64,000 bases of DNA from Bryum argenteum. Lineage: Eukaryota; Streptophyta; Bryopsida; Bryales; Bryaceae. The stretch spans positions 13,637,758 through 13,701,757 of the forward strand of contig CM073323.1 in NCBI GenBank assembly GCA_037043015.1. The letters run 5' to 3'. This document shows positions 3,572 through 40,441 of the stretch, piece by piece. The stretch's first letter is position 1; each line of letters begins with the position of its first letter. A program made the translations under genes and the position numbers. Under the pieces are notes generated by a model. It worked only from the letters and a program-made list of their open reading frames with translations, had not been told where the DNA came from and made no database searches.

Positions 3572-4790
3572 AGCCCCATTTCATCCTCCTTTGATGTGAT
3601 TGTGACACTCTTGAGTAGCTAGATTGTGTGTGCAACGACCCTAGTGGGGTTAGATGCATGAATGCTTTGGAAAATGACAATTTGTTCCCCAAAAACATGT
3701 TTGGGTTGCAGCTTGATTTGGTGATGTTGTATTATAGTTTCATGTATGAATGTGTGTTTTCTTGCTTGTGTATGTTGGTTTGATTGTCTTGTGTCACGAT
3801 TTGAATTCGTGTGAGGGAACCGCGCGGAAGCGCTGCCCAAAATTCTCCAATTAACCCTAAAATTGTGTAGTGATGGAGAATTCCATGTTTAGTTGATTGT
3901 TAGCACTCATATGTTGATTGGGTGCTTAGGCTTGAGGTAGAAGGTGCTTTGATGTGATTTGCAACCCCTTTTCAGCCCTAAATTGTGTGCTGGACCTCTT
4001 AGTCCATATGTGTTTTAGAGGCCTTAAGTGTTCATTTTGGTCATTTTGTGCCCATAATTGAGCCCTAGGCCCTGGGTGGTCAAATGAGGGTTATTTGAAC
4101 CTCCTAGGGGGGCTTGGCGGACTCAATTCACTGCTGGAGCTACTTGTTTTGCATTAAATGGAGACTTGAGTGAATGGTTGTGTCTCCTTGTGAATCCAAA
4201 CTAGAAATTGCATATATGTATGAAGTTTGGTGTCCATTGCTTGGAAGGTCGTTTTACTTGCACCCACCCCCACGGCCAAACTTGTGGCTTAAAAACCGGG
4301 TCACCGGGATTTAGGCTCACATGGTCCTCCAATGAATCCTTAAGTACAGGACTTCATGAGCTTGTCATATTTCATGTATTTGTTATATGAAACTGCCTCG
4401 ATATTCGTGCACAGCAAATAGTAAGAATCGTTCTTGGGAATTGTGCACAAGAAAAACAGTATCTTTGCCTTGATTTCCGTGCACAACTACTCCAACGATA
4501 TCCACATTGCCATCAGGAATTCACCACGATGAAGGCAAGATATGACCAATCAACAAGAAATTCTTGTTATACATTGACATTGAGTATATAGATCGAACTT
4601 ACCCTCACGCCGTGCTTGACAGCTGCAGTACTTCAACGAAGGCCCTGGGCATCCTCAAAAGCAGCACGCGCATCAACTCTTGAGCTACTAAGAGTCATAA
4701 ACCCTAATCAAAATTAACAAAACCGGAAGCACTAATGGTAATAGGGAGTTTAGGCGAAACGTAGTGTACAGAGACGAAGGGCAGAGATGC
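3572..4790. other. No gene recognised
   Basis: Mixed-composition DNA with only short chance frames. No RNA gene, no recognisable protein homology and no clear terminal repeats were seen. It may be decayed retroelement flank. Confidence 0.4.
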
Positions 4791-4794
4791 AAAG

Positions 4795-4985
4795 GTGCGG
4801 AGGTGAGGCAAAGGGCAACAGGAGCGGGGCACGAGAGGAGCGGAAAGAGCACAGGAGCGGAGCAGGAGCGAATGAGCGGAAAGAGCACAGGAGCGAATGA
4901 GCGGAAAGAGCACAGGAGCGAATGAGCGGAAAGAGCACAGGAGCGGAGCAAGAGAGGAGCGGAAAGAGCATAGTGCGCAAATGAG
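4795..4985. repeat. Purine-rich minisatellite, ~25-bp unit
   Basis: Tandem copies of a unit of the type GAGCGAATGAGCGGAAAGAG plus CACAG, three to four times, flanked by degenerate versions. The plus strand is almost pure purine plus C, giving a strong strand asymmetry. All six-frame products here are low-complexity Ser/Ala/Leu/Pro or Glu/Arg runs and are not considered genes. Confidence 0.8.
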
Positions 4986-6589
4986 GAGAGAGCCAGAGCA
5001 AGCGGGAAGAGAAATGGCGCCAAAAAAGAGCACGAACTCAAAAGAGAAAGGGCGGCAAAAACGGCCAGTAACGGTATTGAGTAAAAGCGATGTGAGTGGG
5101 AACTTCGTGGGGAATGGGGAACTTCACAAGGAACGGGGAACTTCGCAAGGAACAAGCACATCTTGGGAACTTTGGGAGGAACGAGGACATCTTGGGGCAG
5201 TAAAAATCATTTGAAGTTAAGTCACCGAGAAATCCGGAATATTTCTAAAAATAGAAAATACATAATTGTAATGAGAAAAAACCGGATTCGCGAGGAAAAT
5301 GGATAACCCAAACTCAAATTAACAAAATAATTTCATATTGGGCACTAGAATGTTAACCCCTAAATGCGCCGAATGTCAAAAAACGATATTTTGGATAGAA
5401 GGCATAATTTTGAATAGCCATATCTTCTTCATCCGAGGTCCGTTTTGGATGAAATCACTTGGGTATTGTTCCAAATCAAATCTAGTTTGTATTCTAAACC
5501 TTGCAATAAAGTATGAATCAATGGAATGCACTTTAGTGAAGACACCTCTTCTATTTTATTGGAAATTAGTCAAGTTTACATCAAACCATAAAACCGTAAT
5601 GAAAAACTTTAGTCCCTAGTCCATAACTAACTTAACCTTTGATATTTCATAAATCAATAACTTTAATATCAATACTTATACCATTGTTGCAAACATTTTT
5701 TACAACAATTCATCCGACTATTTAACGAGAAAAATAAAAACTTCAATCTAGTTGTTAAAGAAATAGTGTCATTTGTTATTTGAACCATAGTTTACAAGAT
5801 TACCTTAAATAGAGTATAGGGAAAATAATAAGAAATGATTAAATTATCTGAAATTTATACTAACTTATTAAATGTTTAGATGGAACACAAAGTGTTCTCG
5901 TCGTGTACCTTGGAATCATGTAGTCTTAAATGACTTAATTTTATTTCATACTAAATTAGAGCAGTAAGGTACCGACAGGTGATGTGAGGTATTGTAACAT
6001 TCGCACTTACTAAAATATGTGTAATATTAATTGACTAATATCTTGAACTTTACAACGGTTATAGTAAATATAATATTGAGTTTTTTAAAATGTGATTCTA
6101 TAAGATTAGTTTCTACCTAATTAGGTATGCTATATTAAGTATGATATTCAATAGGTTGAATGTATTATTTTACAAATGCATATTGTAAATACAATATTCA
6201 ATATATTTATGTGAGATACTATTATATAAGTATTTAGACAGTGAATAAGTTGAGGAATTATAAGTTTAATACTTAGCTTTTTCAAGTGTATTATTACTAT
6301 ATATGATATTTGAAATATATAATTATTGGTTTAGAATTAAGTCTTGTTAACATTCAGTGAGTAAATATATTTTACATGTTTAATATTCTATGTGTGATAT
6401 TCAAACTTAATAATATTTAATTTTACTTCAATTCTTATGCTAAGATGATTTTTTTAGTATGGAATTCTAAACTTGTTTTCAAAAATTTAGAATGTATCCG
6501 CATCTACGCTTTCTTCCACAAAGTTGCTATCTAGCTTCTCTTTACATTGCAATCCTAAATCATGATCATTAAAATTAATTAACCCTTAA

Positions 6590-6690
6590 TCCTCAACCCT
6601 ATACACTATAACCTAAATCTTAATTTGTAAACTCTAAACCCTAAATTCTATACACTAAATCCTATACTAAACCCTTAACCCTAAACACTT
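6590..6690. repeat. Degenerate interstitial telomere-like repeats
   Basis: A run of CCCTAAA-like units (AAACCCTAAATTC, ACTAAACCCTTAACCCTAAACAC) with many variants. The canonical plant telomere unit is CCCTAAA on this strand, so this resembles a worn interstitial telomeric tract. AT-rich DNA can mimic this by chance. Confidence 0.4.
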
Positions 6691-6927
6691 ATTTAACTTT
6701 GAATCATAACTTCTACAGTTTAAAAGATGATAAAGTTGCGTGGTAGTTACTTTGAATTTCAATCTGTATCAATGGAAAAATATCATAAAACACAAATTGT
6801 AGAATTCTTCAGTTGAACACTATATAATTTTTGAAGAAATCTAGTTAAAGGTATTGATTAGTATTACGTAAATATTTTAATAATCTCAAGATAAATTGTT
6901 TTATAGAATAAAGAAATAAAACCAAAT

Positions 6928-6931
<4 letters not shown>

Positions 6932-6974
<43 letters not shown>
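6932..6974 (+). repeat. Uninterrupted A43 tract
   Basis: Forty-three consecutive A residues. A tract of this length often marks the 3' end of a LINE, SINE or retrocopy, but upstream sequence shows no recognisable retroposon body. It may also be a microsatellite or an assembly length estimate. Confidence 0.8.
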
Positions 6975-6976
<2 letters not shown>

Positions 6977-7688
6977 AGGTTTAAATAAAAAATTATCACT
7001 AATTAAACTACGTTAAAATTACTATAATGTCAGGCGTATATTACGAGTTGTGGTATAGAAAAGAATGCGATTTATAGTTTTATAGTTTTATAACCTATAT
7101 CAAATCAAATTAATTATTATATTATATTAAACTATATTAATTCTTATTCAATATACTAATATGTTTTATTTTACTATATTATACTATACGAAAATATATT
7201 TCCTATAAATGTATATTAAATATTACAGAAAATTCTTATATATTCTATTTTACTATATTAAATTGTATTAAAATAAATATTATTATATCATATCATGACA
7301 AGTTATGTTATATTAAACCATAATATATTAAATATACCTAAATCATGTTCGGTCTATACAATCATGAACAACAATCTATCAACAATAAATTACATTTTAT
7401 AACATTCACAATAGAATTTGGACCTTTTAAAATTTTGTTATAATAGAAGATAATAATGTAATAAAGGTACATTATATAATCATTACATCACCGACGGTGT
7501 ATATGAAACATCGAGCGTGTTTTACTGATGAGAGTTGTGTATGAACAATCGAAAATGTTTTTCCATAATTCCGTACCTTACAATCTAACTTGAGAATCTT
7601 AGGTTTGCCTATGTGTATTTGTTGTGGCAATAGCGAAATCGTAAACTTTGTAACAAAAAGCGTTGTACTTTTGTAAATCTAACAGCTC

Positions 7689-8021
7689 CTAAGCAATAAG
7701 AAAGCAGCGCCGATTCTCACTGCTATGGTAGAATGCAAAACATTCGAGTGTTTGCTTCAAACTATACGCACCCAATTGAAACTTAAGACAAGTTCCGTGT
7801 TGTCCCTCATAATTCTTGTAAGGAATGTAAGCAATCGGAATAGAAAGCGATGTAGTAGAAGCGAAGTGGTTCTTCTTGTATGATTCAAATCTTACAATCT
7901 CGCTCGTTACATTGGGCGTAAAGTTTTCCTCTTGAATTATGATTGTCACTAATGAAAATATAAATAATAAGATACTAATTGTATAAACATTGGTTCTATT
8001 CACTAATTTTGATAAGATCAT
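7689..8021 (-). CDS. Possible small membrane-anchored or secreted protein (unrecognised)
   Basis: An uninterrupted 110-codon minus-strand frame starts at an ATG (8021) in an AT-rich region where stop codons are frequent. Residues about 13-30 (YTISILLFIFSLVTIII) form a strong hydrophobic segment that could be a signal peptide or anchor. The remainder has three Cys, two of them near the C-terminus (GTCLKFQ, LECFAF). I do not recognise a family. It may equally be chance, as no promoter, introns or homolog could be assessed. Confidence 0.25.
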   Translation of the reverse strand: MILSKLVNRTNVYTISILLFIFSLVTIIIQEENFTPNVTSEIVRFESYKKNHFASTTSLSIPIAYIPYKNYEGQHGTCLKFQLGAYSLKQTLECFAFYHSSENRRCFLIA

Positions 8022-8389
8022 GAAATTAGATTCCTAAAATTCAATTGAGATTTGTCTTTTCAATTTCATATTTAAACATAAATAAGCGGATTATATGTAA
8101 ATTTAATTGGACTTTGGTTCTATGCACTAATTTAAATAAAAGAGTAAAATTAGATTTCTAGAATCAGTTAGGATTCATATTCAGTTCTTGGGTGTACCTA
8201 AAGTGCATTAATTTTGAAAACAGGACACATGTCAAAATATTCAATTCTCATTTTCTTTCCACAGTCACCTAGTTTTTTCTAGCATATAATATTTTTAACA
8301 CATATATCACAAATATATCATGGACTTATTTAGGTGTTTTAGCAATGATAATCATATACCTATTCAAACTTAGAAGGGTTTTTGTAAAT

Positions 8390-9450
8390 GTTGACATGTA
8401 GATTCGTTACTTTTATAATGATATTTTTCTAATTATTTCAGTTTTTTAACTAAGAACGGTATAGGGTAATGCAAGTCAACAATCCTATTCTTGTAATATA
8501 TTTATTTACATTTCACTAATTGTTCAAAGTTTGCATGTATTGAAAAGTTTGCATGTATTGAAATGTTTGCAAAAAACTCATAGCGTATATATATCGTTTT
8601 GCTGAAGTAATAAATGGCTGTGGGTATCACTAACATTTTATAGGATAATTACTCTAGGATTTAAAAATATCTTTATTCACTTTATTTTGATTTCCTACGA
8701 ATTAATTTAAGCTTTAACCATAGAAATGAACTATTTTAATTCAATGCGTGAAAACAAAAACAAATAAAATAAAAAAAAACAAATAAAATACACATATAAT
8801 TTTAAAGTAAACAAATAAAAAAAAATGAGAAAAAATATACTTCCATTGCTCTCGTGGTCCTAATATTTTCTCCATAATTATCATATGACATGAATTATGA
8901 ATCAAAGTTATAAAAACCACTCTCACTCCCTTTTTGCGCATACACTTGCACTCGTCCCCTACTTCAAATTCTGTTAAGTTATTGAATCCTCATGAAATTT
9001 TTTAGACATAGTTTCAATTGTCTTATGATATTTTTTACACTTCCACCACATTCATATGGTCCTATTAAGCTATTTTACATATTAAAATCACCTTCTTTCC
9101 ATCATTTTCTTATTCACCCCCTTATTCAAATTTCTGGAAGATCCACGTAAATGATGACACGTAGATGCGTTATTCCTATGATCTATTTTATGATATTATA
9201 ATTTTTATAAGGTTATTATTAGCTAGTCACAGAACAATTTTTTTTTTTTTTCCCTTGCATTTTTTTTTTTCCCTTATTATTCAAAGTTCCAATGTGTTAA
9301 AACTTTTGTAAGAAACTCATAGCATATAGATGCGTCTTTCTCACAAATTTCTAAATAACACCATCAATTTTATAGGGTCATAATTAGCTAACCTAAGATT
9401 TAAAAATATTTTTTCTCATCTTCTTTATATTTTCTACAACTTATTCAAAG
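8390..9450. repeat. Divergent direct repeat, ~740-bp spacing
   Basis: The block 8390-8712 recurs in diverged form at about 9150-9450. Shared landmarks are ACATGTAGATTCGTTA versus ACACGTAGATGCGTTA, AAACTCATAGCGTATA versus AAACTCATAGCATATA, and GGATTTAAAAATATCTTTAT versus AGATTTAAAAATATTTTTTC. It is an old tandem or interspersed duplication of non-coding AT-rich DNA. Confidence 0.6.
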
Positions 9451-9654
9451 TTCTGGTCGATAGAGGTAATCTAAAGTAAATCGGGAAAATTAGTTTCGAT
9501 TTCTTAGAAATTATTTTGGTGATTCCATAATTTTTATAGAGTCCTTATTACCTACTTCACATATAAAAACCCCTTTCCATTAATTTTTTTTAAATACATC
9601 TCCAAGTCTAAATAATTAAACTTGTGTTTATTAAAAAATAAAAAAATAAATATT

Positions 9655-10287
9655 AAAATTTCGAAACGGACCACCCGGGCAGCCCAAGGAGGTGGGCTTA
9701 GCCTGGGCAGCCTGGGCAGCCCGGGCAGCCCGGGCAGCCCACAAAAACGGCGGCGGGGCAGCCCGCGCAGGCAGGAGCGGCCTGTCGACAGGGTCCCCGC
9801 CTCTCCCATTTCGCTCCTCCTCTTCACAGCTCCGCTTGCGCGTGTCCCGCCCTCTCCACTTCCCCCCTCCCATTTCGCGCCTGCGTACAGTCCGCCATCT
9901 GCATTTCCGACGTTTCCGGCGATAGTGCATTTGCTCCTGCTCCCTGCTCCGCGCTTGCTTCGCGCCTCTCCTGCTCCCTGCTTCGCGCCCTCCTTCGCGC
10001 CTCCCGCGCCCTCCTTCGCGCCTCCCGCGCCTCCTGCTCCCTGCTTCGCGCCTCCCGCGCCTCCTGCTCCCTGCTTCGCGCCCTCCTTCGCCCTGCTTCG
10101 CGCCTCCCGCGCCTCCTGCTTTTGCACTCTCCCTTTTTTGTGCTCTTCTTTTAGGTTTTGCTCCATCTTCTGCTGTTCGGCGTTTGCTTTGCGCCTGCTT
10201 GCGCCTGCTCTTGCATCTTCGGCCTTGTTTGAGCTTCGAGCATTCTTCTACGAGGTTATTGCGCGTCCTTGTTTCCTGCTCGTTCAT
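9655..10287 (+). promoter_or_regulatory. GC-rich leader / probable 5' untranslated exon of the 11-16 kb gene
   Basis: An abrupt GC-rich island in AT-rich surroundings. It starts with about five 9-bp units of the GCAGCCCGG type (9695-9740) and continues with pyrimidine-rich plus-strand repeats of the CGCGCCTCC / CTGCTCCCTGCTTCGCGCC type (9950-10110). Long open frames on both strands here are compositional artefacts. A strong donor (CAT|GTAAGT) at 10288 and a good acceptor just before 11091 suggest that this island is the transcribed 5' leader, spliced to the first coding exon. This is inference; no TATA box was identified. Confidence 0.4.
9950..10115. repeat. GC-rich pyrimidine/purine minisatellite
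   Basis: Irregular tandem copies of CTCCCGCGCCTCCTGCTCCC and TGCTTCGCGCC blocks of about 27-36 bp. The strand asymmetry (C/T on plus, G/A on minus) mirrors, in the opposite orientation, the purine-rich minisatellite near 4.8-5.0 kb. Confidence 0.75.
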
Positions 10288-10469
10288 GTAAGTTCATACC
10301 TCTGAATTTTAGGTTTTGCATTGAGATTGTGTTTTAGGAGCTTGTTTTGTACGTTGCAGGGCACAATGTTTTAGAATTCTGCTCGAAGTGTAGTGGCTTC
10401 ACGCAAATTTGTGTTCATTGCTTCGGAATTTGTGTTTTTCTGCTCGAATGCGCTCATTTGAACTTTCAG

Positions 10470-10536
10470 CTCATTTAGCTCGATGCCCATTCAACTTGAT
10501 GCCCATTTAGCTCGATGCCCATTTAGCTCGATGCCC
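10470..10536. repeat. Direct repeats of the palindrome half-site
   Basis: Four head-to-tail copies (one degenerate) of a 16-bp unit GCCCATTTAGCTCGAT, which is exactly one arm of the neighbouring palindrome plus one base. They lie directly before the palindrome array. Confidence 0.9.
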
Positions 10537-10578
10537 GATTAATTAGATTCATTATTATAGTTCTCCATGCCAACCGAA

Positions 10579-10974
10579 GCCCATTTAGCTCGATTCGAGC
10601 TAAATGGTCTCGCACCTCGTTTCAGGGCAAGCCCATTTAGCTCGACTCGAGCTAAATGGGCTTACTGCTTCGTTGCAGGTCAAGCCCATTTAGCTCGATT
10701 CGAGCTAAATGGGCACGGACTTCAAACAAGGCCTGGCCCATTTAGCTCGAGTCGAGCTAAATGGGCTTACAGTTCTGTAGCAGGTTAAGCCCATTAGCTC
10801 GAGTCGAGCTAAATGGGCTTACTGCCTTGTTAAAGGACAAGCCTATTTAGCTCGACTCGAGCTAAATGGGCACGGACCTCATAAGAGGTCAGGCTCATTT
10901 AGCTCGAGTCGAACGAAATGGGCTTACTGCCCTGTAGCAGGTTAACCCCATTTAGCTCGACTCGAGCTAAATGA
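10579..10974. repeat. Array of eight palindromes with ~52-bp period
   Basis: Eight inverted repeats, each about 31 bp (arms GCCCATTTAGCTCGA around a single central base), at roughly 10579, 10631, 10684, 10736, 10789, 10841, 10891 and 10944. They are separated by 20-23 bp spacers. Spacers fall into two related types, TTACTGC..TGT.GCAGGTTAA and ACGGAC..CA.AAGG/AGGTCAG. The array has CRISPR-like regularity, but the spacers are similar to one another, so this is a satellite-like array. It probably lies within the first intron (about 10288-11090). Confidence 0.92.
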
Positions 10975-11092
10975 TCTCGCCACTTAATCTAAACATGTTA
11001 AAGTTTTTTCCGGTTTGATCGTCAAGATAATGACGATGTTCTACTGCCCCTGTGAATCTTACAATTTGATTCTCATTTTCTAAATGACAGTG

Positions 11093-11119
11093 ATGCCGAG
11101 AACCAAACAAACTGCCAGA
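11093..11119 (+). other. Histone H3 N-terminal tail mimic (RTKQTAR)
   Basis: Codons 3-9 of the predicted protein read R-T-K-Q-T-A-R, identical to H3 residues 2-8 (ARTKQTARKS). Pro replaces Ala1, and Ile-Val follows instead of Lys9-Ser10. With Pro as second residue the initiator Met would normally be removed by methionine aminopeptidase, which would place the mimic at a free N-terminus, as in H3. The identity is seen directly; a role in binding or competing for H3K4 readers or writers is inference. Confidence 0.7.
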
Positions 11120-14100
11120 ATTGTTCAGATGGCCGCGAATGCACCTGCCGAGCCTGAAATCAACATGGAAGTGGAGCAGCAAGAGTCTGTTCCTGAGGTA
11201 ATAGTCCACTTCATATCTATGTTCCCATCTCATGTGTCTATTTAGCTCGAATCGAGCTAATTCGCCCTCTGTTAATTTGTTATCCACAGGTCACTTATAA
11301 CATGCAAGCCCTGGAGGGATTCCTTGCACCAGTACAACTCGAAACACCAGACGATCCGCTTGCAGCTATTGCTGTGGACGCGCAATGGGGGAGGTTGTGG
11401 ACCCCCAAGCCAAATTCCATCAAGTCTTGGTCGATTCGTCCGATGAACAAGACCCATTTCTTCTTCTATCAACAATCGGGGTCTCACGGGGCATTTTTAC
11501 CTCTGTGTCTTGATGCCTTCATCGAACTTGTTACTTATGAAGACGAATTCCTCATGATCAAGTTCAAAGCAGTGGAGGTCGAAGGTTTCGTCTTCACTAT
11601 TGTATTTCCCCCCAATGAAGTCCGTTTCTTCCACGACTTCATCCGCAACTATATGGTCGGGAAGGTCGATCCCACTCAGTTTCTTCATATCGACACGAGA
11701 TTGCAGCCCAATGGGTCTTCCCCGAAAGCCTTCGTCAGATCGTACATTCCTTACACTGCGCAGATCTGGAAGGCTCTGTCTGATTTCGAGACTGCAAAGA
11801 AGAAAGGCAAGGCTCCGATGAAACGGTCCGGGAATCTACTGTTGCAGGCTCCATCCGAGAATGCTCCGTCGGGTCTAGGCACTCCAGAGGGAAGTCTAGG
11901 CGTGCAGAGAACGAAGCGTCCAAACCCGATCTCATCCAGCTCTGGCTCCAAGAGGAGCAAATCCTCCGGCAGCGCTCTTACGTTCATGAACCCTACAATG
12001 AACGTAGCTGTCTCTGAGGAAGCGACGAAGTCTCTGAAGGACTACTGGGACAACTGTGCAGAGTGTTATGTCTTTGGTCGTGACAATCCGCTTGACGTGT
12101 CGATCGACCTGCTCGACCTTGCCGAACCAAGGTTTATCGTGCGATCTCTGGAACTGGCCGGCATCGCGCATTACAAGAACATCTTGATGAATTCCCTCGA
12201 TGTTACTTCCAGGCAAACCATCATCATTATGCCGAAGATCAAAGCTGAGCCTGAGATGTGGGATTGGGAAGATCTGGTCCAATCTTGTCGGTTCCGAATT
12301 ATCGACGGGCAGCACCACGTTGAGGCTGCGAAACAGTTGATTCGTGACAAGAAGATCGACGACTCGAAGATCCTTGCCCTTCAGACATGGAAAGCCCATG
12401 TTGTGTGGCATTCCGACATCAGCAAGATTCTGGACGTGTCAGCCATGGCGAACAAGACGAACAATGCTGGGACGTTCATACCTTCGTGGGCAACGAACAT
12501 CATGGGCGCTAAAAAGGTTTGGGAAGACTATGGCCGCCCTCAAAAACTGAAGAAGCCGCATCGACGTGAAACACCGGTTGAAGTAGATAACCGGAAGCGT
12601 TATGAGGTATGAGATTACTTGTTCTTTTCTTTTTCTGGTTGGCGTTGTTTGCATTCTCTGTCGACGTTTTTGGGGACGTCGTTTTAGCTCGACTCGAGCT
12701 AAAACAGCATAGGTTGTTTCTTAATGGTTTGGCTTTCGTGCAGGCATTCGCGGCTGCTATGGTGAAGAGGTTCATCAGCATCAACAACAATAACGTGAAG
12801 GACAAGATCGTCAGACCGTCCGACCTTCGCAACGAGCTGCTCATCATCACATCTCCGAACGACGTCTACGAATTGTGGAAGAGGTTCATCACAGACTACA
12901 GTCTTGGAGAGCTGATCGACCCCGACACCGAGCTCCCATTCAATCAGGGGAAAGATTGGGAGACCGTCTCAAAGAAGTTCACCTTGAACAGGGTGTTCTT
13001 CAAGGGAATAGGGCAGTTAGACGCGGAGAACCTCGAGGTGTTGGCGCAGCACTTGCTGAACAAGACTCTGGATCGAACGTTGCCCTATCCCAAGGTGGCC
13101 GTGAGGAAGCCTACTAAGAATTACTTTCAGTGTATGAGTGCAAAGCAGTGGGTGGAGAATCGGAAAAGGAAGAACACTGTCGCGAGGGAACTGCACAACC
13201 TCAAGCCCTCGCTCGGTTTGTTCGACTCCGAGTGGCACTTCGACGTCGACAACTGGAGGAAGTTTAAGATGGAATACAATCTGACTCGTCAGACTATGTC
13301 CATGCTTCTCTCGGTCCCGGGCGACTCGTTCTTCACCCTCTACCGCCAAAAGCAGACGAAGAATAGGAGTGCAGCAGAGATTTCGGAATATGCAGCCGAG
13401 TTCTTCAAGAAGTTCCTGGATGTCAAAGGGACGTTTGAACCTCCTGCACCGATTGTTTACACGCGGCTTTTTTACTCTTCCGAGTTCAAATTCGGGATTT
13501 GGGACAAGAACTACGCTTGGAACCAATTTAGCAAGTGTGATTTAGGCTTGATTGATTTGCGAGCTGTCCCAGGGAGTGGAAGTAGAGTGGACGACACGGA
13601 GAGTCCATACTTTCAAGAATTCCTTGATGTGTGGGCAGACACCATGACCGATCCTCACATCAAGAATCCCGAGGTTTGGATGTTCATCACCTCCAACGTC
13701 GACCGTCACTGCCAGGCAATGGTTTACGTCGACAAGAAGTTGAAGGACGAGTACTCTCGCAAGGCAGCCAACTACATGCCGGCCAGCAACGAGCGTTTCA
13801 ACGGCATTGCAAAGGAAAAAGCTTCAGAGAAGCACTTGCTCCGCCTCCTCTTTCTTGTCAAGAAGAGCAGCCATGCTCAGAGTGTGTTGGATGCGATACC
13901 CACTGTATTCTACGCTCCAGAGTTGCCCCTCTACTCGAAGCCCGGCGCGTACAGAGAACACGACCTTGGTCTCAGTAATACCGAGCTGCGATTGGAGTTC
14001 TACTGTCGGGTGTTGAAGATGTTCTCATCTCCGGGAGGGAAGATTCTATCGATAATGGGTGGCACAAAGCCAATGTTGGCTGGAATTGTAAGTACCTCGC

Positions 14101-16452
14101 ACCATTCCTTCAATTGGAACTGCTCATGCTCGTTTAGCTCGAGTCGAGCTAAACGATCTCATGCTCGTTTAGCTCGACTCGAGCTAAACACTCTCATGCA
14201 TGTTTAGCTCGAGTCGAGCTAAATGGTCTAATGCTCGTTTAGCTCGAGTCGAGCTAAGCGGTCTCATGCTTAAATCTCTTCATCATGTATTTTGTCCATG
14301 GCCTTTTAGCTCGAGTCGAGCTATTTTCTCTTAGTCTTCTTATAAGTTTCTCTCTCCTTCTAAATCAGATGTGCCAGGCTGAGACATATGTTGTTATCAG
14401 CGAGACCGAGAAGGAGGCTTATACGAATGCTGCGACGGATCACCAACATCTGGACTACAACGATATCAACGTCGCAGCATACGTAAATCCGGAAGCTAAT
14501 CGCGGTCCCAAGCCTTCTGCTGAAGGGTCGGGGAAGGGAAAGAAGAGGAAGTCTAAGAAGAAGACCACCCAGCCTGTAAGCGACGACTCTTCCGCTTCTG
14601 AGCACGAGCGTGAAGATGAAGGTGGTCCTTCTTCTCCGGCGGGGATGAATTCCCCCATGGATTCAGCTGTTCCTCTGGTGTCTCCTCCCGCAATCGACTG
14701 GGCTGCGGTGGCAATTCCGTCCAGTACTGCTCGTGCTCCCCCTCGTGGTCGTGGTACTGCTCGTGCTCCCCCTCAGGGTCGTGGAAGCGGTCGAGCTCGG
14801 TCTTCTGCGTCTCATGGCCGCGGTACAGTATGCGCCCCTCCGCGCGAATCTACCAAGCGTTCTTCTTCTGAGGCGCGAGCTAGAGAGGCTTCTCGGTCAA
14901 GAAGCGCTACTGTGCCTCAAGTACAGACGGCGCTCGAAGCCAACTATGGCGCCCGCGATGTCGTCGGGGACATTCAGAGCCCCCCCCCTCCAGCGCTTGC
15001 GTCGTGGTCCTCCATCGGAGAAGGATTTAGCTCGAGTCGAGCTAAACCAACAGTCTCCTGGGGTCGTCGATATTGGGGCCGCTGGGACTCCGGTTCAGCA
15101 CACGGTTCCACCCCCGGGGTTTCGAAGGGAGGTTCGTTCAAAGAACTCGAACGATGGCATCTACCGAGATCTCTTTGTCGAAGACGATGTAGAACCTGGG
15201 CAAGAGCGTGTGCCACGGGATGCATCATCATCAGACAGCTCTGACTCGTCAGACAATGACGATGTTGAGGGTGCGAGCGATGGCGACAGGGACGACGATG
15301 ACCAAGCTGATGATGCTGATCTCGCGGCCATGACCTTAGACGACGAGGTGGCTCCTGATCCATCCCAAGAGGAGACTACTTTGGCGCCTCCTCCCCAAGG
15401 CTCGCAGAGCGCACCCAGGAGGCAGATTGAGAAGAGGAAGTACGACAAATGGTTCGTGAAAGGTGTTTGGAAGCCCGAGGACGAGCCGGAGGATACTATG
15501 AAAATCCGGTTTTACGACTTCTTGGAGGAGCCTAGTTCTCCAAAGCCTTTGAGGGCTGAGGATGATCCTCTTCTCCCTGTCGTGCCTTTGCTCAGGGAAG
15601 AAGGAGAGCCTTCACAACCACCAGTGAAAGTAGAAGTTGTCGCCCCCATGCTCACGAAGGATCAGAAGCGAGCACAGAAGCGGCAAGAGAATGAGGCTCT
15701 GAAGGCTCGCAAGGCAAAGGAAGAAGCGGAGAGAGAGAAGCAAAGATTAGCAGATATCGCAGCCGCGAATGCTCGAGTAGACAGATTGGAGTCCACATTC
15801 CTGAGCTCTCAGTCCGAAACCCGCATGGCACTAGGCAAGATGGAGCAGATGTTTCAATCATTCGGAAATATCTTATCCCAACTGCCTAGTTATCCTAAAC
15901 CCATTGCCTCCATCAACCCCGATCAACCTCGCCTCAGCATCTGTGACGCGAGTCCTCCAGCCATCGTCGCGCCTCCACAACCTCCCATCGTCGCGCCTCC
16001 ACAACCTCCCATCGTCGCGCCTCCACAACCTCCCATCGTCGCGCCTCCACAACCTCCTATTGTTGCTGAGCCAGAGATCGCACCCCGCCCCTTACCCCTC
16101 CAGATTTCGGAGAAGCCGGCGAAAGAGGATGAAGTCCCGATTGAGGCAGCGCCGACGCCGACCCACTCTCCCGTGGCTGCTACCAAAGTTGTTCCTACCC
16201 TTGACTCTCCCGTGGCTGCTACCGAAGTTGCTCCTACCCTTGACTCTCCCGTGGCTGCTACTGAGACGGCTGTTACTTCACCAGTAAATCTAGAGGTTAG
16301 TTACTATCTTTTCCTTCTCTTTGTTTTTGTGATCGTTGATGGTGATGGCAGTTGCTCTGCTATTCCCTCATGTCTTGAAGTTTTCGCATTTAGTAATCTT
16401 AAAGCCAGCGCTCCTTGTTTGACAGGAGTCCGGCACCGATGGCGGCGAGTAG
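11093..16452 (+). CDS. Large spliced gene: H3-tail mimic, ParB-like segment, degenerate beta-class DNA methylase-like fold, RG-rich and coiled-coil tail
   Basis: Exons read as 11093-11197, 11290-12606, 12744-14087, 14369 to 16295 and 16426-16452, all joined by phase-0 GT-AG introns. The N-terminus is MPRTKQTARIVQ, containing histone H3 residues 2-8; an in-frame ATG also lies three codons upstream (11084). Exon 2 holds RFRIIDGQHHVEAAKQLI, like the ParB nuclease-fold core (IDGQHRxxAA). Exon 3 ends with GGKILSIMGGTKPMLAGI and exon 4 begins with AETYVVISETEKEAY, matching in layout the SAM-binding end of beta-class N4/N6 methylases (DPFxGSGTT ... YxGIE). The preceding CDLGLIDLRAV sits where DPPY is expected, so catalysis is probably lost. 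The tail is Lys/Arg/Gly-rich, acidic, then coiled coil (15640-15880) and Pro-rich repeats. Within exon 4 two overlapping frames are open (to 15244, and from 14733), and I have not resolved their connection. The element family is unknown. Confidence 0.6.
11198..11289 (+). other. Intron with a palindrome
   Basis: A GT-AG intron of 92 bp (GAG|GTAATA ... CCACAG|GTC), phase 0. It contains a palindrome of the TTTAGCTCGA family at 11240-11261 with central AT. Confidence 0.7.
12607..12743 (+). other. Intron with a perfect palindrome
   Basis: A GT-AG intron of 137 bp, phase 0 (GAG|GTATGA ... GTGCAG|GCA). A perfect 25-bp palindrome with arms GTTTTAGCTCGA occupies 12681-12705. Confidence 0.75.
14088..14368 (+). 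other. Intron carrying five palindromes
   Basis: A GT-AG intron of 281 bp, phase 0 (ATT|GTAAGT ... AATCAG|ATG), splitting the methylase-like SAM-binding region. Palindromes lie at 14131-14155, 14166-14189, 14201-14224, 14236-14259 and 14304-14327. The first four are separated by 11-12 bp spacers, several containing CTCATGC. Confidence 0.75.
14733..16295 (+). CDS. Acidic / coiled-coil / proline-rich tail ORF of the large gene
   Basis: This long frame overlaps the end of the RG-rich frame of the same gene and probably supplies the C-terminal part of the product from about 15.05 kb on. It encodes an acidic Ser/Asp block (DASSSDSSDSSDNDDVEG), a charged linker with VKGVWKPEDEPEDTMKIRFYDF, a coiled coil (QKRAQKRQENEALKARKAKE followed by heptads to SFGNILSQL), then proline-rich tandem repeats. 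A final 8-codon exon (16426-16452, ESGTDGGE) follows a phase-0 intron. Upstream of about 15.0 kb the frame is probably only a shadow of the other frame. No catalytic motif is seen; it resembles a structural or interaction region. Confidence 0.5.
15025..15047. repeat. Palindrome inside exon 4 of the large gene
   Basis: A TTTAGCTCGA-type palindrome with central G lies between the RG-rich frame and the acidic frame, preceded by a run of nine C at about 14982. Translated, it reads LARVELN in one frame. It is one of two copies within an apparent coding frame. Confidence 0.85.
15957..16066 (+). repeat. 24-bp coding tandem repeat (IVAPPQPP)
   Basis: Four nearly identical 24-bp units encode the octapeptide IVAPPQPP. 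Identical codon use across copies indicates recent expansion. Confidence 0.85.
16160..16265 (+). repeat. 39-bp coding tandem repeat (SPVAATxVxPTLD)
   Basis: Almost three units of 39 bp encode SPVAATKVVPTLD and close variants. They follow the octapeptide repeats in the C-terminal low-complexity tail. Confidence 0.8.
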
Positions 16453-16699
16453 GTCGACGAGTAGTCTCCAAATTATTGGATGCTGTTTCGCTTTTTGTAC
16501 ATAGTACAATTATAATCGTTGTACTTATTGAAACATCATTCAATAAAATTGAGACTCTTTTATTTCACATCACTTTTTATCTTCAGTGAGTCTGCGTCCT
16601 TCTCATCACAAGGCCCTAAACTTCGTCCTTTTCTACCAAGCCCCCCTTCTGAATACCTTGTTCCGTCCGATTGCTTCAAAATCCCCCGCCAATCACCTC

Positions 16700-17659
16700 A
16701 TGTTACCTCTGAGTGTGGCGGTTCAGTACCCAATCAGTGCTGGCAGTTCTTTGCATACTTCAGCATTTTGCAAGGTACACACCCTCTTGTTTTAATACCA
16801 TTTGCCATTGTTACGTGTTCTCTCACTGCAGGGAGGACCGTCCAAACATCCCAAACAACGTATCTCGCCCGAGCTACCCATTACGCATATCTCCCGCAGT
16901 CTTTTACGACCCAAGCCCAAGTGGTTGAATGTGATGTTGGAGTTGGACGGGGTTCTATGTTCGATGGCCTCTGTGTCTACCCCAACGCGTGCAGAGTGCC
17001 TGTCTTTTCCGGATCCCAATAATCCTCCGGTGTTTTCCTCCACCGTCCCAACCTTAGTTGCCGGCAGGGTCGTCTACTGTCGTCCCGGGTTGACCGGGTT
17101 CCTTCGCTTACTAAATTTGTTTTTCCACATCCACGTCTGGAGTACCCTAGAGCCTAAGGTTGTCCATGGACTCTACTCCTTTTTGTTCTCGAAGTCAGAC
17201 GCTGCCCCTGGACTTGTCTTGGCTTCCAACCAATGCGATAATCTGTTGTTGAAGAATTACGCATTCGCCAAGTACCCCGGCACGACAAATCCCATCCTCT
17301 TAAAATATCCTCGACGGCGGTTGTATCCTAGGAAGGGTGCCAATTTTAATGACGATAACTTGCTCATTGTCGATTCCAAGCCTGAGACTTGCATTGCGGT
17401 TCCCACAAAGAACACACTTTTCACTGTTCCGTGGAACCATTCATGTCCGGAGGATCCTAAGTCCGACTTATTGAAGAGGATAGGCGAGATATGTCTTTCC
17501 GTGCATTTGAACGGTCCTGAGAATTTTGCCGAGACTATGCGCCATCGTAGACCCACGCATAATGAACTGTCGAAGGACTCAGAGTTGTATATACTCTTGA
17601 GCCGTAATCTTCCATATTTGTGGAATCAGGACCGAATCAGTGGGAAGAATTTGCCTTAA
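16700..17659 (+). CDS. FCP1/NIF-like HAD-fold protein, probable pseudophosphatase
   Basis: Two exons, 16700-16774 and 16832-17659, are joined by a 57-bp phase-0 intron and give about 300 residues. The sequence LNVMLELDGVLCS corresponds to HAD motif I (hhhDxDxT/V), but the nucleophile position is Glu (E-L-D-G-V). It is followed by VVYCRPGLTGFLRLLNLFF and IHVWSTLEPKVV, matching the RPGLxEFL ... hxhaT region of FCP1-type CTD phosphatases, and later by NLLIVDSKPETC, the hhVDxxP motif. The fold assignment is by motif order. Loss of the nucleophilic Asp suggests no phosphatase activity, perhaps binding. It lies 250 bp downstream of the large gene, same strand, and likely belongs to the same unit. 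The start is uncertain. Confidence 0.55.
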
Positions 17660-17770
17660 ATTCTTTTATCAGTGGTATTATTCTGGTTTTTACCCTAGAA
17701 AGCTTATGTTTATCGGTTGCTTAGATCCAGATATAATGTAGATCGATTGGTGAATCCACCCTCGACATAC

Positions 17771-18484
17771 ATGATTAAATGCGTTCTTATATTGTGTACC
17801 TTTTTCATTGCACTTAGTGTCTTGGACTCACTTGCTAAAATGGCTGTGTTTATGAACCAGGTTGCTGCTGTTGGACGTCAGCTCTCTCCACATCCATCAT
17901 GTGCTTTGCAAACAAATCTTGTAATTGGTCCTTCGACGGTTTCAGAGGCTTCCATTACAAGTGACGACTCCACAACTTTCTCAGAACGAATGCGGGGACG
18001 GCTAATCTACTTTGCTCCGGACGATGCGTCGGCTGTAGACTACTCGAAGGAGGACATGGATAATGACGATGATCGTGTAGTAGACAGTCCCCCTATTGAG
18101 ATTCAACCAGTTATTGCAACCGGCAATGATCGAATCGGTGTGATGACCTCGGTTGCAGCGGCACCCCAATGTGAAGCTGTATTACGCAACCCCGTCGTTG
18201 ACGCCCGTGCCTATTTAGCTCGATTCGAGCTAAATAGTTCCTTGCCAAATACTGTGGCTCATTGCTCCTTATCTCTTGGGGCAAACACTCGCGTTCATCC
18301 AACACGATTTTCGACTGAGACTCACCGTCTATTACGGAGACGTGCACCGAAGCGTCGTAGAAGTGGTGGGCTTATGGAGATGGACGAACCTGCCTTCTCT
18401 AAATACACACGTAGTGAGGACCCTCTATTCACTAAGAATGATACTTGTGGTGATACCTCCTCTCCGCCACGTCGTGATTGGTAG
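17771..18484 (+). CDS. Small ORF with hydrophobic start, acidic middle and basic NLS-like tail (unrecognised)
   Basis: A 237-codon frame from ATG at 17771. The first 20 residues (MIKCVLILCTFFIALSVLDS) are hydrophobic; alternatively this part is intron or leader, since CAG at about 17858 could be a splice acceptor. The middle is acidic (DYSKEDMDNDDDRVVD) and the end is basic (LLRRRAPKRRRSGG), resembling a nuclear localisation signal. A palindrome at 18211-18237 is translated as AYLARFELNSS. AATAAA-type signals follow at about 18523 and 18552. No family is recognised. It is the last same-strand ORF of the cluster. Confidence 0.35.
   Translation: MIKCVLILCTFFIALSVLDSLAKMAVFMNQVAAVGRQLSPHPSCALQTNLVIGPSTVSEASITSDDSTTFSERMRGRLIYFAPDDASAVDYSKEDMDNDDDRVVDSPPIEIQPVIATGNDRIGVMTSVAAAPQCEAVLRNPVVDARAYLARFELNSSLPNTVAHCSLSLGANTRVHPTRFSTETHRLLRRRAPKRRRSGGLMEMDEPAFSKYTRSEDPLFTKNDTCGDTSSPPRRDW
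18211..18237. repeat. Palindrome inside the last cluster ORF
   Basis: A near-perfect 27-bp palindrome with arms CTATTTAGCTCGA around a central T, the rightmost copy of the family in the window. Confidence 0.9.
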
Positions 18485-18519
18485 ATAATATAGTGCCTAC
18501 CTGTTGGAGGTTTACAATT

Positions 18520-18560
18520 ACACCAATAAATTGTATTTGTGCTTTCATATGAATAAAATT
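18520..18560 (+). terminator. Polyadenylation-type signals
   Basis: CAATAAATT at about 18522 and GAATAAAATT at about 18551 follow the stop codon at 18484. They are plausible 3' processing signals for the last ORF of the cluster. Context only. Confidence 0.35.
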
Positions 18561-18799
18561 TTCTCTTGGGGGAGCATATTTCTTAGCTTGCATTATGAAA
18601 TCTTTTCTATTATTGCCTTTTATATTGAGAAAATTCATCATTATCAGTAAAAACCTGGTGATTTGGTAACTAATCAGGTTAGAATCGATCTAAATGGAAG
18701 TCTCCCTAATTACCAAAATCAGTATATATTCCCATTATAACGAATTACGTGTTAAAATAGAAATGGAGAAGATGATGACCACACTTCTTCAAGGGACCC

Positions 18800-19179: not shown

Positions 19180-20600
19180 ACAGTGTCAGTGTGGTGGCAA
19201 CTTGTATACACAGCTTTTAGAAATATCGATGCACATGGAAGCCATGCATTTGCTCATTTTTAGCTGAAACTTTGTACAAATGAAGCTTGAGTCTACACTC
19301 AATCAACACAAATTTTGTTTCAGGAAATGTTGTATGCGTAGTTTTCTAGCTCTTGTTTCTCTCTCAAGGCAATTTAGCCTTTAGGTGCATTTTCTTCTGT
19401 TTAAGATTTTGCAAAAATGGGAGGTTGTCGTTTAAGCACAGAGGAAAAGGGTGTTATAGTTGGGATGAGTCGTTCAGGAATGTCACAACGTAGCATTGCA
19501 ACAGAGTTAGGCATGCCACGTTCTACCATTGAATATGTTTTGAAGAAATTCAATGATTACGGAACAGTGGTCACTCGTAAAGTCGTACGTTGACGTTCCA
19601 AACTAACTGATCAAGGTAGAAGGGAATTGGTACGCATTCTTATACAGAATAGACGCATTCCACTTGTCTCTATTATAGAAAAGATGACCGAGAAAGTTTG
19701 TGTACGTACACTAAGGAAGGAGATTAAACGTATTGGATTTCGTAGTTGTGTTGCAGCAAAGAAGCCATTTCTTAGTCACAAGCACAAGGCTGATAGATTG
19801 GCATTTGCCAAGACACATCAATCTTGGAACACATTGGATTGGATGCATGTGATATGGACAGATGAGGCTTCATTTGAGATAGGCAAAAATTCCCGGCAAG
19901 TGAAGGTTTGGCGACGATCTTATGAACGTTATTCATGGGATTGCTTAGCACCCACTTTCAAATCTGGCCGCACATCCGTCATGATTTGGGGTGCTTTTAC
20001 AGGTTATGAAAAGTGCCCCATTGTTATTATGCCATCCGATAGACGGACAAGTGCTGATTTTGTTGACATTGTATACGAGGGTCGATTGAGTGGCTTTTTT
20101 TATATGCATGATGATCCTCAAAGTCTAATCCTTATGGAAGATGGTGCCCCGGTGCATCGTAGTAAGTTACCGCAACAATGGCGACAAGCTCGTAAGATCA
20201 AGAAGATTATATGGCCTGCAAACTCACCGGACTTGAATCCCATAGAGAATGTGTGGATGATTCTAAAAGACGTTGTACAAAAGGAGACTAGGCCAAACAA
20301 CAAAGATGAATTGATCAAAAGTATTGAGCGGGCATGGGAAGCTATATCCATGGAGACTCTTGAAATTCTCCTTGCTAGCATGCCTCACCGGATGAAGGCT
20401 GCAATTAATGCGGGGGGCAGTAGTACTAGATGGTAGATAGTGTGCCACAAAATGCTCTATTGTTGTATGCTTTGACTATTTCAATGTAATAAAAGTGCAT
20501 GTCATGAAACTAGACTTCATTATCTTCCAAACTCAATTTACGATTTGCAATTCCATACATTTTTGAGCCTTTGGTGTCATTTCCAAGTTACAGGTTTACT
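19180..20600 (+). mobile_element. Tc1/mariner element around the transposase
   Basis: The transposase frame with some 200 bp on each side has the size expected of a Tc1 element. I compared the flanks (19180-19300 against the reverse complement of 20440-20620) and found no convincing terminal inverted repeats or TA duplications, so the ends are only estimated. Confidence 0.5.
19417..20436 (+). pseudogene. Tc1-type DDE transposase (DD34E) with one internal stop
   Basis: A 340-codon frame from ATG at 19417 to TAG at 20436. The N-terminal helix-turn-helix is clear (LSTEEKGVIVGMSRSGMSQR, then SIATELGMPRSTIEYVLKKF). The catalytic triad is visible as WTDEASF, MEDGAPVH and SPDLNPIENVW, with 34 residues between the second Asp and the Glu, which is the Tc1 signature. 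One TGA interrupts the frame at codon 59 (19591-19593), just after the first DNA-binding domain. Otherwise the frame is open, implying a fairly recent loss. Full length is normal for Tc1 (about 340 residues). It could only act from a downstream start, without the complete DNA-binding region. Confidence 0.93.
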
Positions 20601-23050: not shown

Positions 23051-23854
23051 TCAGTGCTGCTGCTCCGTATGACTGGATAACCGAGGTGCATATGATCGAC
23101 GTTGTGTAGTAACTCTGTGCTGCTCCCTCTCCGCATTTCTGAGCTCCTCCGATTCCGCACTTCTGCGCTGCAGCTCTTGAACTCTGCGCCGGAATTGCAA
23201 TTCTCTGAACGCACCGAACTGTGTCTGCCTTGGTGGCTGTTGAGGTGGACTGATGACTGGATGTGAGTCTTGTGGAGGAGGACGGGTGGCCGGATGGGGA
23301 TGTGGTGTGATTCTGTGTTGATCGTCTCCGGAAAAGTCATGTCGTCTTGGTAGCAGTGGAGGTATGACCGGTACGATTGGACGAGGACGGATGACCTGAT
23401 GGGGATGTGGTGCGACTCTGTGTTGATTCTCTCCAGCAAAATCATGTAGTCTTGGTGGCGGTGGAGGTATGACCGCCACAATTGGAGGAGGACGGGTGAC
23501 CTGATGGGGATGTGGTGCGACTCTCTGATAAATTTCTCCAGCAAAACTATATCGTCTTGGTGGCGGTGAAGGTGGACGGATGACCGCCGGATGGGGGCGT
23601 GGTGGGATGCTAGTGCTGCCTTCTCCTGATGATTGTGCTGCCGGGGAGCCATAGACGGCGATAGTATTGGCCTGCAAGCTGAGAGGGGTTCGGCAGATGG
23701 GACATGGTTTGCCCAAGTCGTGTACCCAGGGGTACAAGCATGGCCAGCAGAAGATGTGTCCGCAGCTCGTGCACACCGGATCTTTAAGTTCTTCAAGACA
23801 TATGTAGCATCCCCATGGCGGGACCATGTTGACTTGTGTCGATGCCTCTGGCAT
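23051..23854 (-). CDS. RING-finger (C3HC4) protein with proline/histidine-rich repeats, RMA/RNF5-like RING
   Basis: An intact 267-residue frame from ATG at 23854. Residues 16-54 form a C3HC4 RING (C16, C19, C31, H33, C36, C39, C51, C54) with the CGHIFCWPCLYPW pattern typical of RMA/RNF5-type ubiquitin ligases, which ubiquitylate substrates at the ER. Unlike RMA proteins, no C-terminal membrane segment is visible. Residues about 90-200 carry three copies of a 35-residue repeat (RPPPIVAVIP, PRLHDFAGENQHRVAPHPHQV), and the end is Arg/Gln/Glu-rich and probably helical. The upstream sequence to about 24.1 kb may contain a 5'UTR intron. E3 ligase activity is inferred from the RING; the substrate is unknown. 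Confidence 0.75.
   Translation of the reverse strand: MPEASTQVNMVPPWGCYICLEELKDPVCTSCGHIFCWPCLYPWVHDLGKPCPICRTPLSLQANTIAVYGSPAAQSSGEGSTSIPPRPHPAVIRPPSPPPRRYSFAGEIYQRVAPHPHQVTRPPPIVAVIPPPPPRLHDFAGENQHRVAPHPHQVIRPRPIVPVIPPLLPRRHDFSGDDQHRITPHPHPATRPPPQDSHPVISPPQQPPRQTQFGAFRELQFRRRVQELQRRSAESEELRNAEREQHRVTTQRRSYAPRLSSHTEQQH
23200..23600 (-). repeat. 105-bp coding repeat in the RING gene
   Basis: About three direct repeats of roughly 105 bp, each encoding one 35-residue Pro/His-rich unit with a conserved FAGE/FSGD...QHR core. Copies differ mostly by substitutions that keep the pattern. Confidence 0.75.
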
Positions 23855-23949
23855 GGTTGCTTGCTGATATCACACAACTCAAAAGCAATTACTAAGGACT
23901 AAATTTGCTTATGATGAGCAATCAAGGTACTCCGATCCACAAAGTTCTG

Positions 23950-40357: not shown

Positions 40358-40441
40358 GCTGGCTTGCCCGAGTGGTCTAAGGGGGGCGACTTAAGATCGC
40401 CTATGCGTAGGCATGCGTGGGTTCAAACCCCACAGCCAGCA
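40358..40441 (+). tRNA. tRNA-Leu (anticodon UAA)
   Basis: The acceptor stem GCTGGCT pairs with AGCCAGC. The D-arm region is TTGCCCGAGTGG. The anticodon stem GGCGA/TCGCC encloses loop CTTAAGA with anticodon TAA. A long variable arm (TATGCGTAGGCATGC) marks class II. The T-arm is GTGGG-TTCAAAC-CCCAC with discriminator A. There is no intron and no encoded CCA, as expected for a nuclear gene. It lies about 390 bp downstream of the anoctamin stop. Confidence 0.96.

Follow-up and report, generated by a model that had tools for sequence, protein, structure and literature searches.

A 64,000-nucleotide stretch of the moss Bryum argenteum (assembly GCA_037043015.1, contig CM073323.1, forward strand; hereafter the window, C3:13637758-13701757) contains a copy of a repeated, transposon-like element, one gene of which begins with a match to the tail of histone H3. 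This gene encodes M-PRTKQTAR-IV from an ATG at window position 11093, and RTKQTAR corresponds to residues 2-8 of H3. Sequence comparison across the genome (258.8 Mb, 25 contigs) places the gene in a repeat family, finds the mimic in three divergent families, and identifies conserved splice sites around it as well as family-specific palindromes in its vicinity. From this anatomy we infer, with a probability of about 0.4 for the mechanism as a whole, that the gene specifies a sequence-specific anti-silencing protein comparable to VANC and equipped with an N-terminal H3 decoy. The later steps of such a mechanism, from expression through binding to anti-silencing, are put forward here in conditional terms.

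The mimic-encoding exon and its probable start codon

The sequence-only reading of the window had reported a perfect H3-tail match in the first coding exon, and translation together with 55 exact genome copies confirms it. The mimic occupies 11099-11119 on the forward strand, within an exon (11091-11197, forward strand) that includes the start codon at 11093 and encodes MPRTKQTARIVQMAANAPAEPEINMEVEQQESVPE. Position 1 of the mimic is Pro in the window, whose copy belongs to family A, and Ala in families B and C. A chance origin of the motif was rejected: the pattern ATGCCNMGNACNAARCARACNGCN (MPRTKQTA) has 55 exact matches in the whole genome, 32 of them on contig C1, whereas the reversed pattern has none. 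An additional spelling, ATG-Ala-AGR, is without a match in the genome, and scans of viral and prokaryotic contigs, by protein and by motif, produced no confirmed match.

Exon 1 ends at 11197, where GT follows, and is joined in frame by exon 2 (11290-12606), which is in turn in frame with exon 3 (12744-14087), both with GT/AG borders. Exon 2 is represented by 97 matching rows in the genome and, among public protein sets, by nine homologues with 50-78% identity. Exon 3 is open and has no Pfam match, and beyond it lies an exon 4 region (14369-16296; all of these on the forward strand) in which the reading frame shifts close to a run of C around position 14980. Searched as a spliced protein of 922 residues, the product had no match at E 0.001, and no Pfam family was matched above its cut-off by any exon of the gene or by its homologues.

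Translated from 11084, the window reads M-T-V-M-P-R-T-K-Q-T-A-R-I-V-Q, and the earlier reading had set the start of the exon at this upstream ATG (11084-11086, forward strand) while cautioning that its use would spoil the exposed end. The upstream ATG lies inside a probable acceptor, ATGACAG|TG, and is very probably intronic, because the acceptor and donor are conserved and family B has no nearby rival ATG; the mimic ATG is thus probably the first start in family A. The probable 5′ intron (10288-11090, forward strand) extends from a GTAAGT donor to an AG acceptor and contains an array of palindromes. Among 32 sequences examined, 27 gave a row, one copy being read twice, and GTAAGT stands at the equivalent of window position 10288, or at most one base away, in 24 of the 27 rows (23 of 26 copies). 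At the other end of the intron, an AG at -4/-3 relative to the mimic ATG is found in 29/30 family A copies chosen by their motif, in 10/10 inexact family A copies, in 8/9 family B copies and in 16/17 copies of A′ and A″, two side lineages of family A. Comparison supports the splice site that had been predicted at 11091, the acceptor AG being conserved two bases ahead of the ATG at 11093.

Position -9 carries an in-frame ATG in 29/30 family A copies, 10/10 inexact family A copies and 9/17 A′/A″ copies, and in 0/9 copies of family B. In the latter family, none of nine copies has an ATG of any kind within 12 bases before the start, and an in-frame stop lies close upstream of the ATG in seven of the eight copies shown. 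The window has no ATG in 9660-10287, and of the 27 rows, 17 (16 of 26 copies) likewise have none in the 300 bases upstream of the donor, the others containing one to three. Given the conserved splice sites, the upstream ATG was rejected as a translation start on this comparative evidence. As far as comparison goes, the concern that it raised is answered in A by the splice sites and in B by the missing ATG. Just 5′ of the probable donor, 9660-10287 forms a repeat-like leader that is rich in GC and has open frames rich in P, R and A on each strand.

Copies, families and the relation to host H3

A protein search with exon 2, in which 96 of 1,027 first-look candidates were scored, returned 97 rows, counted as 96 copies after one row that was the second half of another copy had been dropped. 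Membership of a selfish-element family, as the sequence-only reading had suspected, is borne out by these copies, 94 of which belong to family A (side lineages included) and two to family B at 52-53% identity. Contig C1, which at 44.1 Mb makes up 17% of the genome, holds 78 of the 96. In keeping with a plant host, the genome also encodes a LEAFY SAM domain (best E 1.1e-28), for which none of 14 control genomes gave a match; LEAFY is not known outside plants.

The mimic takes the form PRTKQTAR in family A, ARTKQTAT in B and ARTKQTAR in C. The motif codons differ mostly synonymously among the three families, at 8-9 of the 24 bases over the eight motif codons when A, B and C copies are compared, and the flanks are unrelated. 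Family B has MARTKQTATIVPA.. in the copies read, which are nine of the 46 assigned to it, the others having been assigned by a short DNA match. This match gave 75 hits, with 46 assigned to B and 16 to C; the other 13 are three real H3 genes, one unrelated sequence and nine unread. Exon 2 of family B is about 49-53% identical to that of the window, and the exon 2 tree puts the A-B distance at approximately 0.9 substitutions per site. All 16 copies of family C were read; they have ARTKQTARIRGRGPDLVQK or a sequence near it, with exact ARTKQTAR in 14 (as found by a pattern that fixes RTKQTA). One family C copy with ARTKQTAR (L086/L115, at C3:13602477) lies approximately 35 kb to the left of the window, together with its own palindromes and a NIF-like gene.

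Within family A, a pattern that leaves codons 2-8 free and fixes the following RIV codons, and that excludes A′ and A″, found 60 sites, six of them unrelated; PRTKQTA is kept at 39 of the 54 family sites. Codon changes in the motif comprise 14 synonymous and 16 non-synonymous ones, whereas 47 of the 63 single changes that are possible there would be non-synonymous (binomial p = 0.009, an optimistic value because copies share changes by descent).

Over the 24 bases of ARTKQTAR, just three distinguish family C from one host H3 gene, a likeness that might suggest that a fragment of host H3 was captured and has since persisted neutrally. Compared with the three host H3 genes read, however, family A differs at 8-9 and family B at 6-9 of the 24 bases, and no H3 sequence follows residue 8 in the copies read. 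In addition, RTKQTA survived neutral evolution at about 0.9 substitutions per site in 18 of 300,000 simulations (about 6e-5), as against 2.4% at 0.3 per site. Neutral capture was rejected on the codon differences in A and B and on this simulated survival, and we consider it very unlikely.

Palindromes, predicted fold and element anatomy

Each family has its own palindrome or near-palindrome of 20-21 bp in probable introns of the mimic gene, a location that is direct for A and deduced for B and C because their sites adjoin exon 1. The family A palindrome, TTTAGCTCGA-S-TCGAGCTAAA, occurs at 19 window sites with at most two mismatches, where none are expected, and at 4,929 exact sites in the genome, where the reversed control has none. 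Eight palindromes of the form TTTAGCTCGA-N-TCGAGCTAAA, some with one or two changes, make up the array of the 5′ intron (10584-10971, spacing 52-53 bp), which numbers 10 sites in a C1 copy of the element and 21 in a C5 copy. Further palindromes are distributed over 11241-18234 (at 11241, at 12683, five at 14133-14325 with the first four 35 bp apart, at 15026 and at 18214), and 15 of the 17 in the window segment 10283-18753 reside in introns or intergenic DNA. The palindromes at 15026-15046 and 18214-18234 lie inside open frames, whose translation across them gives L-A-R-V/F-E-L-N; the C1 copy retains the pair, and the C5 copy retains the first.

The near-palindrome of family B, TTTAGGT-N-GCTGCC-N-CCTAAA, has 107 matches in the genome, and that of family C, CATCGGTCGATCGCCCGATG, has 41. 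Of the latter, 33 fall within 2 kb of a C motif, as against none even within 10 kb after shifting; among the 100 B matches listed, 36 have a B motif within 2 kb and 52 have one within 25 kb, as against seven after shifting. No B or C palindrome was found near the other of these two families.

The mimic protein is predicted to contain a domain of the ParB/sulfiredoxin (Srx) fold, encoded at 12082-12474 on the forward strand and bearing the motif I-D-G-Q-H-H. The fold appears in a structural model at residues 265-395 of exon 2; a prediction from the single sequence reached a predicted local distance difference test score (pLDDT) of 31, and sequence searches of the PDB gave nothing significant. 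A ParB-like fold and palindromic arrays, together with the accumulation of exon-2 copies on C1, would also suit a partition device or mitotic tether, in which the protein sits on its arrays and its H3-like end engages the mitotic H3T3 pathway, with its Haspin/Survivin-type binding, to bias inheritance or integration. Set against this are the lack of a ParA-like gene among the window frames scanned and the fact that accumulation on C1 fits ordinary build-up on a low-recombination chromosome; such a tether is improbable.

Alignment identifies in the window a cut, interrupted copy of a large, repeated, multi-gene transposon-like element. The main part of this family A copy (4321-18753, forward strand) matches C1:36825000-36844999 in collinear blocks with gaps, at 75.8-94.0% identity, and is truncated at its right end relative to the C1 copy. 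Two palindromes at 2592-2705 are the probable remnant of a left array: the C1 copy has a match to 2594-2705, at 93.8%, that immediately adjoins its counterpart of 4320, and the remnant is parted from 4321 by approximately 1.6 kb of other DNA.

To the left of its array, on the other strand, the C1 copy has a DUF7869 gene (E 4.1e-39). With the best 150 of 1,544 DUF7869 candidates scored, such a gene lies upstream on the opposite strand, within 25 kb, of 47/96 exon-2 copies (45/94 in A, 2/2 in B; median distance 10.4 kb), and upstream and divergent at 29/46 B motif sites. It lies downstream of three exon-2 copies and two B sites, and shifted controls give one to three. None of the 150 scored places is inside the window, and a literature search on DUF7869 returned 0 papers. 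The DUF7869 gene is likely, or at least possibly, the transposase of the element, and the mimic gene is best explained as an accessory gene beside this divergent gene and a NIF-like gene. All three families have built up on C1, as has DUF7869 (121 of the 150 scored places), and C1 may represent a sex chromosome or some other chromosome with little recombination.

The NIF-like gene is the second gene of the element (16796-17656, forward strand), a frame open from stop to stop with a NIF/FCP1-like phosphatase domain. It belongs to PF03031 (E 1.2e-5, 25.4 bits against a cut-off of 21.8), as does its family C homologue (E 5.7e-13, 49.3 bits). In family C, 13/16 copies are followed within 40 kb, in the same orientation, by a member of the 18 closest NIF genes, and for 11 of them the distance is within 11 kb. 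What we take to be the catalytic Asp pair of such phosphatases looks altered in both A (ELDGV) and C (DLNGL), so the NIF-like protein may act by binding rather than by catalysis. Other NIF-like frames, 27-56% identical to that of family C, suggest further related families, although some are likely host or A/B frames. A third open frame of the element follows at 17699-18481 (forward strand).

Conceivably, the mimic serves to recruit an activator rather than to act as a decoy: it could be methylated at K4, or read by a PHD or chromodomain protein or a COMPASS-type complex, and so bring the transcription machinery to the palindromes. The adjoining NIF-like gene would then point to the biology of the C-terminal domain of RNA polymerase II, and there is a viral precedent in influenza NS1, whose H3K4-like peptide is reported to bind CHD1 and MORC3 from a C-terminal position, with no free amino end (PMC10612106). 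Recruitment draws on the same sequence evidence as the anti-silencing decoy, and we judge it rather unlikely.

Elsewhere in the window are a Tc1/mariner-type transposase gene (19417-20436) with DDE_3 and Tc3 helix-turn-helix domains and an in-frame stop, TGA, at 19591-19593; a gene for a RING-finger protein (23054-23869, reverse strand); and a tRNA-Leu(TAA) gene (40358-40441).

A proposed decoy mechanism and its relation to known systems

In the anti-silencing mechanism that we propose, the mimic protein would bind the palindromes of its own family, as VANC binds motif arrays in VANDAL elements, and the likeness to ParB and parS suggests that it may do so as a clamp on palindromic sites. Removal of Met would expose the N-terminus as an H3 decoy, which would occupy or block a factor that reads or erases the H3 tail. 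The first candidate for this target is an LSD1-type H3K4 demethylase, because the SNAG domain of animal factors is reported to mimic the H3 tail and recruit LSD1 (PMC12612597), and because Arabidopsis LDL2 is similarly reported to be required for the removal of H3K4me1 downstream of H3K9me2 (PMC13157976). Tethered to DNA, the decoy could protect the element from H3K4 demethylation and thus, locally, from silencing. A narrower version of the proposal, which we advance only tentatively, is a self-addressed decoy: a ParB-like protein on its own palindromes would present a free H3 N-terminus, ARTKQTA(R), and divert H3K4 erasers or readers from nucleosomes, the palindromes having coevolved within each family and the decoy having stayed near constant. 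Such an arrangement would amount to a eukaryotic anti-silencing system resembling ParB/parS.

Several observations weigh against the decoy. Within family A the motif is no better kept than the codons that follow it, with non-synonymous cells at 10/196 in codons 2-8 and 21/308 in codons 12-22 of 28 copies (p = 0.57); this is as expected because the copies are mostly dead. On C1 the exact motif survives in only 28/76 scored family A copies; off C1 it is kept in 15/18 (window included), a point in favour of the decoy. From the 53 scored copies without the exact motif, 20 were deliberately chosen for that lack, and 17, including members of A′ and A″, were readable; 11 of these lack K4, having R, S, G or I instead, and only two (L109 and L113) retain both K4 and Q5. 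Lineage A′ comprises PRTKTTAK and decayed forms, and A″ is ARTR-T/I/L/S/P-T/I-A. By their sequences, A′ and A″ are a mostly decayed side branch that has lost Q5 and often K4, and K4 is evidently not needed in every lineage. The exon-1 tree groups them with one PRTKQTAR clade, and the exon-2 tree, which includes a single A″ row, does not resolve the base of A; Q5 may have been lost twice or regained.

Other difficulties concern exposure, targeting and fold. Readers that need Ala1 would disfavour the Pro at position 1 in family A. In family C, ARTKQTAR is preceded by CTG in 13/16 copies and by ATG in 0/16, and the motif there may either follow a CTG start or be internal, which makes its exposure at the N-terminus uncertain. 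Family C also has a DUF7869 gene nearby in 0/16 cases among the 150 scored places, and the share of listed B palindromes within 2 kb of a B motif is low. Confidence in the fold model is intermediate, with a mean pLDDT of 54 and a value of about 73 for the domain itself, Foldseek found no match to it at E 0.001 or better, and Pfam and NCBIfam gave no ParB profile match, only weak sub-threshold ones to DndB.

A block that is functional at the N-terminus without imitating H3, for instance a basic nuclear-import signal, a peptide that contacts DNA or RNA, or a stability signal, would account for part of this, the rest of the proposal being unchanged. It would explain why the motif enjoys no special protection within A, why A′ and A″ mostly keep RT..TA while K4 and Q5 vary, and why the conserved block in A and B continues to I-V, which H3 does not share. 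Against such a block, which we consider somewhat unlikely, six to eight contiguous H3 residues recur in three families, in mostly different codons and between unrelated flanks; in A and B they stand at the N-terminus, and B even includes residue 1 of H3. The sequence-only reading of the gene is supported in part. Its selfish family and the persistence of the motif across families stand, and the loss of the motif in A′ and A″ counts against it; its expectation that RTKQTAR is kept while flanks drift holds between families and is not borne out within A or in the side lineages.

If the decoy mechanism is correct, it would be the first transposon-encoded histone-tail mimic, as far as the literature searched goes (no such mimic is among the matches listed from the open literature, by titles and abstract beginnings), and, to our knowledge, the first eukaryotic mobile element to pair a ParB-fold protein with its own palindromes. 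A transposon would then defeat silencing at the histone tail itself, and the families would offer compact natural peptides, together with a sequence-addressed delivery domain, for finding the H3-tail factors that silence plant transposons.

Each part of the proposed system has a known analogue, and as far as was searched no known system combines them all. VANDAL elements of Arabidopsis have a Mutator-type transposase, and we know of no N-terminal H3 mimic in VANC; here, by comparison, the gene linked to the mimic gene, and likely to be the transposase, is DUF7869, palindromes of 20-21 bp take the place of a 9-base motif, and a protein of predicted ParB/Srx fold bears an H3 mimic at its N-terminus. 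Shared with VANDAL are plant DNA transposons with accessory genes and with short, family-specific noncoding motifs in arrays of variable length: each VANC protein binds short motifs that form arrays in the introns and upstream regions of its own transposon, with array length varying among copies (PMC5735166), and removes silencing (PMC5735166; PMC10398659). Judged by Pfam alone, without direct comparison to VANC, the mimic protein does not fall in the VANC sequence family.

SNAG domains are N-terminal, with a Met-Pro-Arg start, and are not known to follow H3 letter for letter. The SNAG factors Snail1 and GFI1 share an H3-tail mimic with the gene described here, whose mimic is probably N-terminal in A and B, and in family A they share its Met-Pro-Arg opening; they are host regulators, whereas here a transposon protein reproduces H3 exactly over residues 2-8. 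Influenza NS1 is a parasite protein that copies the H3K4 region, at the C-terminus rather than the N-terminus. Compared with ParB, Noc and KorB, the system here is eukaryotic, with no Pfam ParB match and no ParA among the window frames scanned; it resembles those proteins and parS in its predicted fold and in the arrangement of its palindromic sites in arrays.

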